A DNA stretch of 33,871 nucleotides from Polaromonas sp. Its GTDB lineage: Bacteria > Pseudomonadota > Gammaproteobacteria > Burkholderiales > Burkholderiaceae_C. The stretch spans positions 1 through 33,871 of the forward strand of contig JAQGMZ010000076.1 in NCBI GenBank assembly GCA_028292045.1, in the 5' to 3' direction. A program made the translations under genes and the position numbers. Shown piece after piece: positions 7,991 through 33,871 of the stretch. Position 1 is the first letter of the stretch. Each line of letters begins with the position of its first letter. The notes beneath the pieces were generated by a model. That model did not search any database, had not been told where the DNA came from, and was given only the letters and a program-made list of their open reading frames with translations.

Positions 7991-8890
7991 CTACACCAGG
8001 CTTTTGCGCAGCCATTCGGCGAACGCCGCGCATTCCCAGCGGTCCATGGTGCCGGTGCGCCAGCACAGGTAATGGGCATGGGGGCTGGCTACCTTGCGGC
8101 TGAAAACCTCGTTCGTGTCCAGGTGCACCAGCGAGCCGTTTTCCAGCCATGGCGCCCCCAGCTTCAGGCGCACCAGGGCAATGCCCATGCCGGCGGCGGC
8201 GCCATCGCACAGCAGGCCGATGTCGTTGAACTGCGAGCCCTCGACCGGCTCGGGCCAGTCGAGGTGGTTGGCGGCGAACCAGGTGCGCCACGGCTCCAGC
8301 GGGGAACGCAGCAGGCTTTCGCCCAGCAGGTCTTCGGCCGATTCGAACGGCCCGTGCTCGCGCAAAAAAGTCGGCGAGGCCAGCGGGACAACCTCGTCGT
8401 TGAGCAGGCAGACATGCTCCAGGTCGGCATAGCGGCCGGTGCCAAAGCGCACGATCAGGTCCGAATCCTCGGCCACCACATCCAGCAGTGGAATCGACAC
8501 CTGGATGGTCAGGTCGATCTCGGGGTAGGCATCGGTGAACTGGCGCAGTCGCGGAATCAAGATGGAGCGGGCAAAGGTCGGCGTGACCGCCAGGCGCAGC
8601 TTGCGCTTGCCCGGGGTGGCGCTGTGGCCCGCCGTGCCGGGAAACTTTTGCAGCGTGGCCAGCCCTTCGCGGACATGCGCCAGATATTCGCTGCCCTCGG
8701 TGGTTAGCGAAAAATCGGCCCGGCCAAACAGTTTGGTGCCGATGATCTGCTCCAGCTGCTTGACCCGGTGGCTGACCGCGCTGGGCGTGACGCAGAGTTC
8801 CTCGGCCGATTGCGTCACGCTGCGCAGCCGCGCCAGGGCTTCAAACGTCAGCAGGCACTGGATGGGCGGAATTCGAGCGCTAGAGGCCAT
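7991..8890 (-). CDS. LysR-family transcriptional regulator, GcvA/AmpR-like
   Basis: This 299-aa DNA-binding regulator has an N-terminal winged helix-turn-helix at about residues 8-67 (FEALARLRSVTQSAEELCVT, then SAVSHRVKQLEQ, and LFGRADFSLTTEG). A periplasmic-binding-protein-like effector domain follows (about 92-295). The opening IPPIQCLLTFEALAR and the phrase LTTEGSEYL resemble GcvA-type regulators. ATG is at 8890. It lies 238 bp upstream of glcD on the same strand, so it may control the glcD-lrgAB unit, although LysR regulators more often act on a divergent gene and the divergent side here is repeat copy A and the 3' end of purU. The target and ligand are unknown. Confidence 0.9.
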   Translation of the reverse strand: MASSARIPPIQCLLTFEALARLRSVTQSAEELCVTPSAVSHRVKQLEQIIGTKLFGRADFSLTTEGSEYLAHVREGLATLQKFPGTAGHSATPGKRKLRLAVTPTFARSILIPRLRQFTDAYPEIDLTIQVSIPLLDVVAEDSDLIVRFGTGRYADLEHVCLLNDEVVPLASPTFLREHGPFESAEDLLGESLLRSPLEPWRTWFAANHLDWPEPVEGSQFNDIGLLCDGAAAGMGIALVRLKLGAPWLENGSLVHLDTNEVFSRKVASPHAHYLCWRTGTMDRWECAAFAEWLRKSLV

Positions 8891-8939: not shown

Positions 8940-9069
8940 CAAGCATAGCGACCGAGGGGGCTTCCCTGTGTCCAAGCAGGGGCCGCGGGACTGGCTTTGC
9001 CAGACCGCAGTCGCAGCGGCCCCTCCGGGGGGCAGGGAGCTACACGCAGTGAGCGACCGTGGGGGCTCA
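8940..9069 (+). repeat. Dispersed GC-rich palindromic repeat, copy A
   Basis: The 90-bp core (8977-9066) matches copy B at about 79 of 90 positions by hand count and copy C over its first 59 bp at about 51. A 16-bp arm at 8948-8963 recurs directly at 9053-9068 with 14 of 16 identities, so the core is bracketed by short direct repeats. Inside are a perfect hairpin ctggc-ttt-gccag (8991-9003), an outer pair ggggccgc/gcggcccc, and a C5/G6 hairpin. Plus-strand translation gives QGPRDWLCQTAVAAAPPGG, the same peptide as in copy B, but here no gene is expected on this strand. The right arm covers the purU stop codon. Confidence 0.85.
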
Positions 9070-9915
9070 TTTGAATATCACAGTCTTGTGCCCATTGAGC
9101 ATGACCCGGTGCTCGCTGTGCCATTTCACGGCCCGGGCCAGCACCTGGCTTTCGGTGTCGCGGCCCATGGTGGTCAGGTCTTCCACGGTCTTGCCATGGT
9201 CGGCCCGCGCCACGTCCTGCTCGATGATCGGGCCTTCGTCCAGGTCGGCGGTGACGTAATGGGCAGTGGCACCGATCAGTTTTACGCCCCGGTCATGCGC
9301 TTGGTAATAGGGTTTTGCCCCCTTGAAACTCGGCAGAAACGAGTGGTGGATATTGATCGCCCGGCCCGCCAGCCTGGCGCACAGGTCGTTCGACAATATT
9401 TGCATGTAGCGCGCCAGCACCACCAGCTCGGCGCCCTCGGATTCGATGATGTCGAGTTGCCTCGCCTCCACCTGCGCCTTGGTGGCGGCCGTGACCGGCA
9501 GGTGGTGGAAAGGAATGTTGTAGCTGGCCGCGAGCTGGTAAAACTCGCGGTGGTTGGAGACGATGGCGCGTACGTCCAGCGCCAGCAAACCCGATTTCCA
9601 GCGGAACAGCAGGTCGTTCAGGCAATGGCCCTCCTTGCTGACCAGGAGAACGGTGCGCATCGGCTGCGCGGTGTCGTGCAGTTTCCAGTCCATCTGCATC
9701 GGCGCGGCAAACACCGTCAGGCGGCTGGAAAGCTCCGCATGCGTCTGCTGGACGCAGGCAAACTGCACCCGCATGAAAAATAGGCCCGTGCTGGGATCGC
9801 TGTATTGCGCCGCTTCCTCAATGTTGCCGCCATGCTCGAACAAAAAGCCCGACACGGCATGCACGATGCCCGGGCGGTCAGGGCATGAAAGGGTCAGGAT
9901 GTAAGCAGGGTTCAT
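9067..9915 (-). CDS. purU: Formyltetrahydrofolate deformylase
   Basis: PurU hydrolyses 10-formyl-THF to THF and formate, balancing one-carbon pools and supplying formate. The 282 aa fit the family. An N-terminal ACT domain (about 1-85: ILTLSCPDRPGIVHAVSGFL) regulates the enzyme. The C-terminal formyltransferase-fold domain (about 90-280) carries the catalytic Asn-His-Asp set in INIHHSFLPSFKGAKPYYQA and ATAHYVTADLDEGPIIEQD. The ATG is at 9915. A -10-like GACAAT lies 9 nt before the ATG on the minus strand. The stop codon (9067-9069) sits within the right arm of repeat copy A, so the gene's extreme 3' end may have been shaped by the repeat. The neighbouring GcvA-like LysR would fit one-carbon metabolism, but a link is only suggested. 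Confidence 0.96.
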   Translation of the reverse strand: MNPAYILTLSCPDRPGIVHAVSGFLFEHGGNIEEAAQYSDPSTGLFFMRVQFACVQQTHAELSSRLTVFAAPMQMDWKLHDTAQPMRTVLLVSKEGHCLNDLLFRWKSGLLALDVRAIVSNHREFYQLAASYNIPFHHLPVTAATKAQVEARQLDIIESEGAELVVLARYMQILSNDLCARLAGRAINIHHSFLPSFKGAKPYYQAHDRGVKLIGATAHYVTADLDEGPIIEQDVARADHGKTVEDLTTMGRDTESQVLARAVKWHSEHRVMLNGHKTVIFK

Positions 9916-17955: not shown

Positions 17956-19938
17956 ATGCGCGTCGAACCCGCCTCAACCACCTTGCCAGGCGTGCCTGCA
18001 GCGCCCGCGCCCGTAAACGACCCACACCCGAACCAGTTCGCCCTGCTGCGCCAGCGCCGCTTCGCGCCGTTTTTCTGGACCCAGTTCTCGGGTGCGGCCA
18101 ACGACAACCTGTTCAAGTTCGCCTTCACCGTCATGGTCACCTACCAGCTTGGCGTGGCCTGGCTGCCGCCGGCGCTGGCCGGGCTGGTGATTGGCGCGCT
18201 GTTCATCCTGCCGTTTTTGCTGTTTTCGGCCACCGCCGGCCAGCTGACTGACAAGTTCGAGAAAACGCGCATCATCCGCTTCGTCAAGAATTTGGAAATC
18301 GGCATCATGCTGATCGCGGCGGCGGGTTTTGTGAGCGGCGACGTGGCGGTCCAGGTGCCGGTGCTGCTGGGCTGCACTTTCCTGATGGGGCTGCATTCCA
18401 CGCTGTTCGGGCCGGTCAAGTTCGCCTACCTGCCGCAGGCGCTCAGCGAGCGCGAGCTGACCGGCGGCAACGGCATGGTCGAAATGGGCACCTTTGTCGC
18501 CATTTTGCTCGGCAACATCGCCGGCGGCCTGCTGGTGGCCGTTCCCGGCACCGGGCCGCAGTTGGTGGCCGTGTCGTGCGTGCTGCTGGCGCTGGCCGGA
18601 CGGGCGGTGGCGCAGTTCATTCCGCTTGCGCCCGCCACCGACCCGGGTTTAAAAATAAACTGGAACCCGGTCACTGAAACCTGGCGCAACCTGCAGCTCG
18701 CCCGGACCAACCAGGTGGTGTTCAGGTCGATGCTGGGCATCAGCTGGATGTGGTTTTTCGGCGCCGTATTCCTGAGCCAGTTTCCTAGCTTTGCCAAGGA
18801 AGTGCTGCACGGCGACGAGCAGGTGGCGTCCTTGCTGCTGGTGGTGTTTTCCATCGGCATCGCCACCGGCTCGCTGCTGTGCGAGGTGCTGAGCCGACGC
18901 CATGTCGAGATCGGCCTGGTGCCGCTGGGCGCCATCGGCATGAGCGTGTTCGCCATCGATTTGTATTGGGCCGCGCGCGGCCTGCCGCCTTCGCCGTTGA
19001 TGGGCTTGGCGGGCTTCCTGGCCCAGCCGTCCCACTGGCGCGTGATGGCCGACCTGGCCTTGCTCAGCCTGTTCGCCGGGCTGTACAGCGTGCCGATGTA
19101 CGCGCTGATCCAGTTGCGCAGCCAGCCGACGCACCGTGCCCGCATCAACGCCGCCAACAATATCCTGAATGCGCTGTTCATGATCGTCAGCGCGGTGCTG
19201 GCCGGTGCGCTGCTCAAGGCCGAATTCACGATTCCGCAGATTTTCCTGTTAACCGGGCTGGCCAATGCGGCGGTGGCTTTCTACATCTTCAGGCTGGTGC
19301 CCGAATACCTGCTGCGCTTCATCGCCTTCATGGCGTCGCGCTGCGTGTACCGTTTCAAAATCACCGGTGACCGCAACATCCCGACCCATGGCGCGGCGGT
19401 GCTTGCCTGCAACCATGTCAGTTTCATCGACCCGGTGCTGTTGATGGCGGCTAGCCCGCGGCCGATTTATTTTGTGATGGACTACCGCATTTTCAAGATG
19501 CCGGTGCTGGGCTGGTTCTTCAGGCTGCTCAAGGCGATACCGATTGCGCCTCGCAGCGAAGACCCGGCGTTGTACGAAGCCGCTTTCGAGGCCGCCGCCC
19601 AGGTGCTGCGCAACGGCGACCTGCTGGCCATTTTCCCCGAGGGCAGCATCACCCAGGACGGCGAACTCCAGACGTTCAAGGGCGGCATCATGAAGATACT
19701 GGAAAACGCCGGCTGCGACGGCCTGGCGGTGCCGGTGGTTCCGATGGCGCTGACCAATTTGTGGGGGTCGTTTTTCAGCCGGATAGAGCTGGTGGGCGGC
19801 CGGCGCGTGGCCATGGTCAAGCCATTTCGGCGCGGTTTGTTCAACCGGGTCGGGCTGAATGTCGGCGCGCCGCTGTCACCTGCCGAGGCGCAGCCGGAGC
19901 GCTTGCAGGCGCGGGTTCAGGCATTGGCCAACGCTTGA
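17956..19938 (+). CDS. LplT-like MFS transporter fused to a PlsC acyltransferase domain
   Basis: A 660-aa inner-membrane protein. The N-terminal part (about 35-440) is a 12-helix MFS transporter of the LplT (lysophospholipid flippase) group: FWTQFSGAANDNLFKFAF, SATAGQLTDKFEKTRI, and GLHSTLFGPVKFAYLPQ. The C-terminal part (about 460-650) is a 1-acylglycerol-phosphate acyltransferase domain with the catalytic NHVSFIDP (His487 and Asp492, HX4D) and FPEGS (560-564). It would flip lysophospholipid inward and re-acylate it. Unlike E. coli Aas, no acyl-ACP synthetase (AMP-binding) domain follows, so an acyl-ACP or acyl-CoA donor must come from elsewhere. ATG 17956 is preferred (AGGAAC 17944-17949 upstream) over the in-frame ATG at 17887, which would add 23 residues that look non-native. 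Confidence 0.9.
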   Translation: MRVEPASTTLPGVPAAPAPVNDPHPNQFALLRQRRFAPFFWTQFSGAANDNLFKFAFTVMVTYQLGVAWLPPALAGLVIGALFILPFLLFSATAGQLTDKFEKTRIIRFVKNLEIGIMLIAAAGFVSGDVAVQVPVLLGCTFLMGLHSTLFGPVKFAYLPQALSERELTGGNGMVEMGTFVAILLGNIAGGLLVAVPGTGPQLVAVSCVLLALAGRAVAQFIPLAPATDPGLKINWNPVTETWRNLQLARTNQVVFRSMLGISWMWFFGAVFLSQFPSFAKEVLHGDEQVASLLLVVFSIGIATGSLLCEVLSRRHVEIGLVPLGAIGMSVFAIDLYWAARGLPPSPLMGLAGFLAQPSHWRVMADLALLSLFAGLYSVPMYALIQLRSQPTHRARINAANNILNALFMIVSAVLAGALLKAEFTIPQIFLLTGLANAAVAFYIFRLVPEYLLRFIAFMASRCVYRFKITGDRNIPTHGAAVLACNHVSFIDPVLLMAASPRPIYFVMDYRIFKMPVLGWFFRLLKAIPIAPRSEDPALYEAAFEAAAQVLRNGDLLAIFPEGSITQDGELQTFKGGIMKILENAGCDGLAVPVVPMALTNLWGSFFSRIELVGGRRVAMVKPFRRGLFNRVGLNVGAPLSPAEAQPERLQARVQALANA

Positions 19939-24900: not shown

Positions 24901-26244
24901 TCAGGGCGCGGCCAGGCACTCGCGCGCCTTGGCCAGCACGTCGGCAGGTCGAATGACCTTGAGGCACTGGTTGTCGCCATCGCAAAACGAGGTGCGGTGG
25001 TTGTAGGCCGTCAGGCAGGGCGAGCACGGCCACTGGCTGTAAAACGAATGGCACCTGGGCGTCAGCGGCGCGTACAGGGCGGGCGTTTCGGGGCCGAACA
25101 GCATCAGCGTCCAGATCGGCGTCAGCGCGGCAAACTGGCCGGGGCCGCCGTCGTTGGTGACCAGCAGCCGCGCCACATGGAACAGCGCCAGCAACTCCGA
25201 AATAGAGCGGGTGTAGCCGGTCAGGTCGACGATATGGCCCCCAGGTTCGTTCACTTCGTGTAACTCTCTGCCCCCCGAGGGGGCCGCTGCGCCTGCGGTC
25301 TGGGGAAGCCAGTCCCGCGGCCCCTGCTGGAATGGGGACCCCTCACGGTCGCTTGCTTCGCTGGCGCCAGCCTGCACTTGCGCTACCAGCAGGCGGGCCA
25401 GTGCCTGGTCGTCTTTCAACCCAATCACGGCCACGGCGCAGCCGTCGGCCACCAAGCCCTGGCACAGCGCGGTGTACGACGCCAGCGGCCAGGCGCGAAT
25501 CGGCAAAATGCCGCCGCCCGGGTAGACCAGCACCAGCGGCTTGCCGGCAATGGCGGGAAAATCCTGCGCCAGCCGCGCCTGAATGCCCTGCACCAGCGCC
25601 GCATCAAGCCGAACATGCGGCGGCGGCTTGGGCATGCCCAGCACCGGCAGCTTGGACTTCGGCACGGCGGCGGAGTCGATCGACCGCGCCAGCGTCAGGA
25701 ACTGGGCGCTGATGTGGTGGTAGGGGTTGTAGGGCACCGGCCGGTTGATGTGCGAGCCGCGGTACAGGCCTTCCTGCGTGTGGCGGTGAAATCCGACCCG
25801 CACGCGGGCGCCGCTGGCATACGACAGCAGGCTGCTGATGCGCGAGAACAGTTCGCAGTCGATCGCCACGTCGACATTCGCCCGGCGCAGCGCCTGGATC
25901 GCCCGCCACAGGCTCGACAGCAGCGAGGTAAGCGAACGGTCGTCTACCGTGTGCACATTCTCCGGGCGAATCACCTGCATCAGGTCGAGAATTTCCCGGT
26001 TTTTGCGAAACAGCAGCGCATGCAGCGGCGCATCGGGATAGCGTGACCTGAGCCGGGCGAACATGTCGTTGGCCAGCACCAGGCTGCCCATTTCGGACAG
26101 CAGGATCACCACGATGGCGCGCGGCGCCTGGTCGGCGGCCGGCGCCGGCTGAAAGCGGCGCTTGAGCGCGTCAAAGCCCGACACCGCCGCGCACAGGGGT
26201 ATGCCCGCCCAGCGGTCGATGAAGCGCTGCAGGTCGATGTTCAC
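24901..26244 (-). CDS. GT9 (heptosyltransferase-like) glycosyltransferase carrying an in-frame repeat insertion
   Basis: This is a cytoplasmic GT-B fold enzyme related to ADP-heptose:LPS heptosyltransferases, 447 aa. The N-terminal domain shows VILLSEMGSLVLANDMFARL. The C-terminal domain shows LVLVYPGGGILPIRAWP and the nucleotide-sugar site LLVTNDGGPGQFAAL. A Cys-rich tail (CSPCLTAYNHRTSFC) is typical of a subgroup. Translation starts at GTG 26244, three nt after the tgt stop. Repeat copy B supplies residues 307-336 and a few before them, between ARLLVAQV and HIVDLTGYT. In relatives these flanks are joined by a short loop, so the enzyme carries roughly 38 additional residues without a frameshift or stop. 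Catalytic motifs are intact, so it may still work. Confidence 0.9.
   Translation of the reverse strand: MNIDLQRFIDRWAGIPLCAAVSGFDALKRRFQPAPAADQAPRAIVVILLSEMGSLVLANDMFARLRSRYPDAPLHALLFRKNREILDLMQVIRPENVHTVDDRSLTSLLSSLWRAIQALRRANVDVAIDCELFSRISSLLSYASGARVRVGFHRHTQEGLYRGSHINRPVPYNPYHHISAQFLTLARSIDSAAVPKSKLPVLGMPKPPPHVRLDAALVQGIQARLAQDFPAIAGKPLVLVYPGGGILPIRAWPLASYTALCQGLVADGCAVAVIGLKDDQALARLLVAQVQAGASEASDREGSPFQQGPRDWLPQTAGAAAPSGGRELHEVNEPGGHIVDLTGYTRSISELLALFHVARLLVTNDGGPGQFAALTPIWTLMLFGPETPALYAPLTPRCHSFYSQWPCSPCLTAYNHRTSFCDGDNQCLKVIRPADVLAKARECLAAP
25237..25366 (-). repeat. Dispersed GC-rich palindromic repeat, copy B, inside the GT9 gene
   Basis: The core is at 25237-25326 (minus strand), exactly 90 bp or 30 codons, with about 79 of 90 positions equal to copy A by hand count. 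The left arm gcgaccgtgaggggtc lies at 25337-25352 (minus-strand reading). The right end near 25237 keeps only part of the arm. Read in the GT9 frame it gives [19 protein letters not shown] and then RELHEVNEPGG, the same frame that is open in copies A and C. The inner hairpin is shortened here (ctgg/ccag). Confidence 0.85.
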
Positions 26245-32958: not shown

Positions 32959-33483
32959 ATGGCGAAATCCCCCGTTAAAAACATTGCCCAGGTGTCGGCG
33001 CAAGGCGCGCCGGTCATCAACATCGGCATCAGCGACAAAGACCGCGCCGCCATTGCGCAGGGCCTGAGCCGCCTGCTGGCCGACACCTACACGCTGTACC
33101 TGACCACCCACAATTTCCATTGGAACGTGACCGGGCCGATGTTCAACACGCTGCACACCATGTTCATGACGCAGTACACCGAGCTGTGGAATGCGGTGGA
33201 CCCGGTGGCCGAGCGGATTCGTTCGCTGGGCCACCCGGCGCCGGGCTCGTATGCGCAGTTCAGCAAGCTGGCGTCGGTGCCGGATGCGCCCGTGACGCCG
33301 CCCAAGGCCCTGGAAATGGTGCGCATCCTGGTCACCGGCCATGAAGCGGTTGCCCGCACTGCCCGCGAACTGTTCCCCATGGCCGACAAGGCCAGCGACG
33401 AGCCGACGGCCGACCTGCTAACCCAGCGCATGACGGTGCATGAGCAGACCGCGTGGATGCTGCGCTCGCTGCTGGAAGAGTGA
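32959..33483 (+). CDS. dps: Dps ferritin-like DNA-protection protein
   Basis: Dps forms dodecamers that oxidise and store iron with peroxide and bind DNA non-specifically, protecting against oxidative and starvation damage. The 174 aa show [17 protein letters not shown] (about 50-66) and [13 protein letters not shown] (about 79-91), with His51, His54 or His66, Asp81 and Glu85 as likely ferroxidase ligands. The acidic residue that often occurs four after His66 is Met70 here (HTMFM). The N-terminus has three Lys in the first dozen residues, as in DNA-binding versions. Position next to oxyR and its operator indicate peroxide induction. Confidence 0.95.
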
Positions 33484-33499
33484 GCACGCCTTAAATGAA

Positions 33500-33871
33500 A
33501 TGAACAGCATTAGGCCTGATCCTCCTGACCAGCAGGGGCCACGGAACCGGCTTTGCCGGGCCGCAGGCGCAGCGGCCCCCTCGGGGGGCAGCGCAGTTGG
33601 CGAAGCGACAAGCGTGGGGGCTTTGTACCTGCAACTGATTCGCTGGAACCGACCGGCGGGCTGGCTGCTGCTGCTGTGGCCGACGCTGTCGGCGCTGTGG
33701 GTGGCGTCAAACGGTTTTCCGGGCTGGCACCTGCTCACGGTGTTCACCCTGGGAACGTTCCTGATGCGCAGCGCAGGCTGCTGCGTCAACGACGTGGCCG
33801 ACCGGGATTTTGACCGCCATGTCAAGCGAACGGCGCAGCGGCCGGTGACCAGCGGGGCGCTGTCGGTGAAG
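33500..33871 (+). CDS. ubiA: UbiA 4-hydroxybenzoate polyprenyltransferase (3' end outside window)
   Basis: UbiA attaches the polyprenyl tail to 4-hydroxybenzoate in ubiquinone synthesis at the inner membrane. From about 33626 the frame reads [19 protein letters not shown] and ends before the window edge with the Mg-prenyl-diphosphate motif in [20 protein letters not shown] and RPVTSGALS, all diagnostic. The start is uncertain. An in-frame ATG at 33500 opens a reading frame that passes through all of repeat copy C (residues 12-41) into UbiA without a stop; GTG 33614 or TTG 33623 would give a family-like N-terminus. None has a clear Shine-Dalgarno sequence. Gap to the dps stop is 16 bp from the ATG. 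Confidence 0.9.
33533..33622 (+). repeat. Dispersed GC-rich palindromic repeat, copy C, at the 5' end of ubiA
   Basis: The core is at 33533-33621, one nt shorter than copies A and B because of a deletion in its right third. The inner hairpin is ccggc-ttt-gccgg (33547-33559), against ctggc-ttt-gccag in copy A, so the stem is kept by a paired change. The C5/G6 hairpin follows. The left direct arm is missing; the right end (gcgaagcgacaagcgtgggggct) resembles the left arm of copy B. Translation in the ubiA frame gives [19 protein letters not shown]. Confidence 0.8.

Follow-up and report, generated by a model that had tools for sequence, protein, structure and literature searches.

A dispersed structured repeat carried in frame by a GT9 glycosyltransferase gene and other conserved genes of Polaromonas

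How does an enzyme gene come to carry, in its own reading frame, a palindromic repeat that is also scattered between genes? The question is raised by a glycosyltransferase gene of family GT9 in a 33,871-nt stretch of DNA (the window), which is contig 202 of the draft Polaromonas assembly G000 (3.3 Mb, 279 contigs, 81% complete). A first-pass annotation of the window had proposed that the repeat is translated in frame within this gene, in the manner of rickettsial palindromic elements (RPEs). Here, we compare the gene with its orthologues, follow the repeat through other Polaromonas genomes and weigh the explanations for its presence in coding sequences.

The GT9 gene with and without its repeat

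The product of the GT9 gene (447 aa) matches the Pfam family Glyco_transf_9 (E 5e-16), and its top fold matches are heptosyltransferase II of E. coli (1psw) and a GT9 protein of Veillonella. The repeat is located in the loop after LLVAQV (Table 1). The flanks align end to end with insert-free orthologues, the gap is a multiple of three and no stop codon falls within it, confirming that a dispersed palindromic repeat lies in frame inside this gene. The core had been described as exactly 30 codons; its in-frame, stop-free state is upheld, but its length is 94 nt, or about 31 codons. The gap measures 156 nt versus 39 nt in the usual empty loop, so that the net insertion amounts to 117 nt, or 39 aa. 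The spacer is specific to GT9 and, by eye, has a partial likeness to the tail end of a separate unit. In the AlphaFold model, the insert occupies the loop between helix 277–297 and strand 337–340, in the second half of the enzyme, with very low confidence (pLDDT below 50) across residues 306–334, and the inserted segment is probably disordered. A helix-to-strand turn in a Rossmann-like half is generally remote from the edge that binds the nucleotide, a position that would account for the tolerance of the insert.

Table 1. Coordinates of the GT9 gene, its insert and the other repeat copies in the window
Feature	Position	Strand	Basis or remark
GT9 glycosyltransferase gene with in-frame repeat	24901..26244	−	ORF, Pfam, orthologues, fold match to 1psw
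Repeat core, 94 nt, in the GT9 reading frame	25237..25330	−	sequence reading, copy comparison
Spacer, GT9 flank to core	25331..25374	−	nucleotide comparison; empty orthologues lack the spacer
Entire loop segment, 141 nt, replacing 24 nt of empty orthologues	25234..25374	−	net +117 nt
Copy A, intergenic	8975..9066	+	88% match to GT9 core
Copy C, between ORF 32959–33483 (+) and ubiA	33529..33621	+	81% match over 33529–33608

The two other copies in the window carry the same peptide frame free of stops, as had been noted from the sequence. Copy A is flanked by ORFs on the minus strand (7991–8890 and 9067–9915) and adjoins the stop codon of the latter. The open frame of copy C continues into the start of ubiA (33440–33871, plus strand), as a leader or an N-terminal extension. 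Apart from the repeat, the window contains an Rfam match to Bcj11 (Burkholderia sRNA 11) at 18686–18807 on the plus strand (73.1 bits, gathering score 49). Chance similarity of the three copies is excluded because the assembly to which the window belongs has at least 43 matches to the repeat at E≤0.001, copies A and C included, with 40 of 88 first-look candidates scored. Four other genomes have at least 46, 51, 66 and 73 matches, respectively (40 candidates scored in each). Many copies are intergenic and some form tandem arrays, with a period of 110 nt in G045 and about 102 nt in G042. One array of G045 (L265, G045:C5:1830790-1831981) consists of 11 near-identical units with the 110-nt period and is situated beside long open frames.

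Orthologues of the GT9 gene occur in two states. In a survey of 61 genomes of the genus, the locus was obtained from 24; the segment is absent from 19 of these and present in four, and the remaining locus is on a contig fragment that starts within it. Together with 10 named loci, some of the 34 possibly being close relatives, the loop was measured as filled in six, empty in 27 and fragmentary in one; gaps are 129–171 nt long with the insert and 39–54 nt when empty. Named carriers are P. glacialis R3-9 (L094), CG_9.7 (L095), the MAG RYN_542 (L093), 338R_metabat_72 and RGN.1. The insert is orthologous in the first three, making a sequencing artefact, one of two objections foreseen in the first-pass annotation, unlikely. 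The other objection was that the segment might be an ancestral part of GT9 shared with distant genera. This is not so, since the orthologues of Ramlibacter (L122) and Rivibacter (L124) are without it. Thus, given the empty majority and several carriers, the GT9 insert is derived, present in independent assemblies and in frame. A single gain followed by plain descent was considered and found unsupported, because the insert label requires at least four changes on the GT9 tree (32 rows, loop removed, L124 skipped). In one carrier, G013, much of the core has been lost.

Copies inside other genes and their reading frame

The first-pass annotation had suggested looking for the inserted peptide inside unrelated proteins. 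We fetched 107 regions around 114 repeat clusters from JS666 (G031), P. glacialis (G036), G042 and CG9_12 (G045). The regions were chosen from the listed matches of a DNA search irrespective of frame and represent an unbiased set; 13 further regions, picked by a peptide hit together with a long ORF, are biased and were excluded from the frame count. Since a strict coding rule, which flagged eight of 139 clusters (four of them at region edges), missed the GT9 copy itself, a relaxed cluster list was judged by eye, with host genes recognised through Pfam and NCBIfam. The host list excludes copies close to N-termini or in genes that match no family (L276, L215, L267).

Family-supported in-frame copies are found in many Polaromonas genes. 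In P. glacialis the hosts include cinA/MoCF, a GlcD-like FAD oxidase, mpl, GT9, a ligase-associated DEXH helicase (two copies), cyclopropane synthase and an alpha/beta hydrolase. The same hydrolase is a host in G045, along with an MdtB-like RND permease, and the hosts in G042 are ksgA and a histidine phosphatase. None of the clusters of JS666 holds an in-frame copy by the family-supported score. A scan of 32 clusters in the genome of the window added cinA and priA to GT9. In this priA (L010, G000:C122), the copy is positioned directly ahead of the helicase motif LLGSATPS. The biased set contributes an FAD-oxidase/FeS protein (L280) and a salicylyl-CoA hydroxylase (L281), the latter with two copies in opposite orientations.

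Filled and empty alleles were also found in cinA, ksgA and the helicase. The single site of cinA is filled in 10 of 20 genomes and empty in the other 10, and in G023, G013 and G024 a large part of the core is missing from the insert. For ksgA, 20 genomes were searched, two gave no ksgA and three of the 18 loci have the insert. The ksgA of G018 (L320), counted as empty, retains by eye a tail-like remnant of the repeat without the core. The helicase was nearly whole in six of the 20 genomes, with an insert at site 1 in five and at site 2 in four. At site 1 (L333–L337), the same loop carries the forward peptide in G036 and G018, the antisense peptide in G045 and G009 and a composite in G013; site 2 uses another peptide frame.

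The comparison between species covered five sites and 83 gaps, 28 of which contain an insert. Every gap length is divisible by three and no gap has a stop codon; the insert alleles, which fall into 22 combinations of site and length, keep the frame in each. Because the two anchors of a gap were placed independently, a frameshift would have been seen. Beyond the insert gap, a few host matches do contain stops: cinA of G023 has two TGA, the G018 helicase has one TGA, and ksgA of G045 has a TGA and a TAG. Some of these alleles could be broken, or the match may overrun the gene. Because the reading frame is kept, we infer that the segment is translated, and the insert-bearing proteins would be made and active, probably with a further loop of roughly 30 residues or more added to working enzymes.

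The frames are not used equally. The frame containing QGPRDWL, which in the consensus is hydrophilic and net neutral, is used by nine of 12 distinct in-frame events, counted by hand as one per gene site (P = 3e-5, or about 2e-4 allowing for the choice among six frames). The bias probably reflects the purging of harmful alternative peptides; insertion in a preferred orientation could explain it too.

Structure, divergence and mobilisation of the repeat

The ends of the repeat are sharp in 171 full-length copies (CCAGCAG...GTGGGGGC). Its hairpins were analysed in 102 distinct copies of a thinned set of 129, where 97.8% of cells are paired, compared with at most 52% when the partner strand is slid. 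Double-change cells number 158 versus 52 in shuffles (none of 500 shuffles as high), and nine pairs show double changes versus a shuffled mean of 5.1; these statistics are inflated by kinship among the copies, and part of the structure was drawn with the alignment in view, which favours it over the controls. Further pair types are not in excess (23 versus 22.7 in shuffles). The consensus folds better than shuffles as DNA (z −3.5). The GT9 copy with its spacer folds no better than shuffles (z −0.6 as DNA, 0.4 as RNA), and no Rfam family matches the repeat at its gathering score.

The core evolves differently from the surrounding gene. Its pN/pS is 0.85 in GT9, 0.95 in cinA, 1.33 in ksgA and 0.60 at helicase site 2, as opposed to 0.13–0.29 in the flanks, and the inserted peptide looks unselected. 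Silent divergence of the cores is 2.6 to 8 times below that of the host gene. Four of the six GT9 insert alleles entered the rate tests, as did three of 10 for cinA, three and then two of three for ksgA, and three of four and two of five for the helicase. Windows with divergence as low as the core were found 10 times in 385 for GT9, 0 in 256 for cinA, 63 in 254 for ksgA, 46 in 964 for helicase site 2 and 49 in 918 for helicase site 1, where the core is no more conserved over all sites (0.140 versus 0.125). The low silent rate is thus well supported for cinA, reasonably so for GT9 and only poorly at the other sites, and the window scan weakens silent-site conservation as a general rule. The pattern suggests that the core is conserved as nucleic acid. 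Wholesale homogenisation between copies was considered for GT9 and rejected: the cores of G000, G036, G018 and RYN_542 are 95–98% alike, versus a median of 82% to the other copies of G036 and G000. The best identity of the GT9 core to any other copy is 91% in G036 and 87% in G000, and the core of 338R is only 84% identical to those of the four carriers.

For GT9, the low silent divergence could instead reflect recent recombination of a gene segment across species rather than slow evolution of the repeat, and we regard this as a real possibility, somewhat short of an even one. Upstream of the insert, the carriers also share a stretch of unusually high similarity (4-fold divergence of 0.04 versus 0.16–0.20, in part of the rows), and the repeated changes of the insert label on the GT9 tree point the same way. 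The cinA site argues against it, since none of its windows is as low as the core and its flanks beside the insert differ by 0.44–0.56 between G036 and G000.

How the repeat moves bears on a second alternative, namely that it is a REP/BIME mobilised by the genus's own RAYT-type Y1 transposase. The repeat is palindromic and a Y1 transposase is encoded in 60 of 61 Polaromonas genomes. Yet, in 32 Y1 loci (20 with 1.5-kb flanks and 12 stretches of 4.5–7 kb) no repeat was detected at E≤1e-3, with weak word matches in four, and the 94-nt unit is without the GTAG-type form of 20–40 nt. Accordingly, we rejected an assignment to REPs with a RAYT and consider such mobilisation unlikely. Nearly every genome has one divergent Y1 gene of about 240–280 codons with no repeat beside it (L081–L092). 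With regard to MITEs, which have terminal inverted repeats and a target-site duplication, the ends of the repeat are sharp, and inspection by eye of part of the rows where empty alleles exist revealed no clear target-site duplication. With three candidates scored in each of 250 genomes of the order, matches came from 11, the present genome included. Those in the 10 other genomes are mostly partial; in one, belonging to a different family, they are spaced in tandem at 91–94 nt. A plasmid search returned one partial match, in Variovorax.

It is very improbable that the inserted peptide is a functional module, such as a linker, a binding segment or a localisation tag, kept and spread by selection. 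The shared QGPRDWL frame and the persistence of the insert across several species would fit a module, but the pN/pS of the core indicates no selection on amino acids, the antisense peptide and another frame are used at the two helicase sites, the core is largely lost in GT9 of G013 and in three cinA alleles, and numerous copies are intergenic. Equally implausible are decaying pseudogenes kept open by GC-richness and few stops: all six frames are open in 91–165 of the 171 copies and a few host alleles contain the stops outside the gap described above, but the host flanks are under purifying selection, every gap is in frame, and ksgA, priA and mpl are among the hosts.

We therefore favour, with good confidence, a selfish structured repeat, very probably the element known as BRE, that persists in genes where it is in frame and in a permissive surface loop. 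As we envisage it, the repeat of about 94 nt would spread through Polaromonas chromosomes as selfish DNA, its copies presumably moved in trans by a transposase or a replication process acting on hairpins. A minority would insert in genes and be kept in permissive loops when they change the length by whole codons and leave the frame without a stop, the host protein gaining an extra flexible segment. Later in-frame deletion could remove a copy, perhaps leaving a stub like that in ksgA of G018.

Relation to known repeats and significance

The closest counterpart is the Beta-proteobacterial Repeat Element (BRE) of about 90 bp, most copies of which (29) were reported in Polaromonas sp. JS666 (Hot et al. 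2011, PMC3110155). In the section of that paper on BRE, the element shares with ours the length of about 90 bp, the GC-richness, the chromosomal location, the dispersed copies and tandem arrays, the many copies in JS666 and the presence of some copies in coding sequences. Our count for JS666 is at least 46 matches (40 candidates scored), against the 29 reported at stricter limits. BRE is also a repeat of Bordetella and other Betaproteobacteria; in the order surveyed here, the 10 genomes that gave matches besides our own show mostly partial ones. The identity of the two is likely, as judged by host strain, size and distribution rather than by letter-by-letter comparison. Some BRE copies were already described there as lying entirely within coding sequences, so the belief of the first-pass annotation that such insertions were undescribed in this family is not supported. 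By contrast, the section on BRE names no host proteins, empty sites, reading frame or structure.

REPs are likewise found inside ORFs of several non-rickettsial species, replication and repair genes included, according to the available part of Di Nocera et al. (2013, PMC3733652). In that account, GTAG/CGTC REPs are, like the present repeat, palindromic and located in ORFs of free-living bacteria; however, they are units of 20–40 bp, tagged by GTAG/CGTC and often near a RAYT, whereas the Polaromonas repeat is 94 nt long, with no RAYT link found in the Y1 loci examined. PARCELs, as presented in the available text of Roske et al. (2010, PMC2996958), are also palindromic, encode a recurring peptide and are seemingly mobile. 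Nevertheless, they are tandem domains of 25 residues in ORFs that have no assigned function, unlike the single insertions in conserved enzymes of Polaromonas.

The rickettsial elements, as outlined in the accessible portions of two sources (PMC10969869, PMC3733652), are similar in being palindromic, in lying in frame in many unrelated conserved genes and in encoding a recurring peptide. The Polaromonas repeat differs from them in sequence, in its high GC content and in its free-living host and, compared with that account, in using at least two frames and both orientations and in reusing the same loops between species. The empty orthologues, the further intragenic copies and the species range bear out the proposed RPE-like behaviour, a likeness that should be taken as working like an RPE and not as membership of the same family. 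A 2024 review, in the portion available, deems a rickettsia-like route conceivable in other bacteria (PMC10969869). Our literature search, with most subscription journals outside its scope, returned no account of host proteins or empty sites in Polaromonas. Thus, the element and its habit are of already known kinds; what appears new is how far the habit extends, together with the recurrent use of the same loops and the frame statistics.

More tentatively, few protein-decorating DNA repeats outside Rickettsiales may be as pervasive as this one, which repeatedly enters the same core-enzyme loops in one orientation or the other; conservation as nucleic acid, through hairpin maintenance or copy correction, might slow its silent drift while the peptide goes unselected. 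For annotation, a segment of about 30 residues common to unrelated Polaromonas proteins should be regarded as a DNA repeat and not as a domain. The natural empty and filled alleles of GT9, CinA, KsgA and the DEXH helicase make the tolerance and later deletion of long insertions directly testable. In-frame palindromic insertion is known mainly from Rickettsia, and Polaromonas is a free-living bacterium. If the favoured explanation is true, genes of a free-living organism repeatedly absorb a mobile hairpin repeat with the frame kept, and the rickettsial habit would not be a by-product of a decaying intracellular genome.
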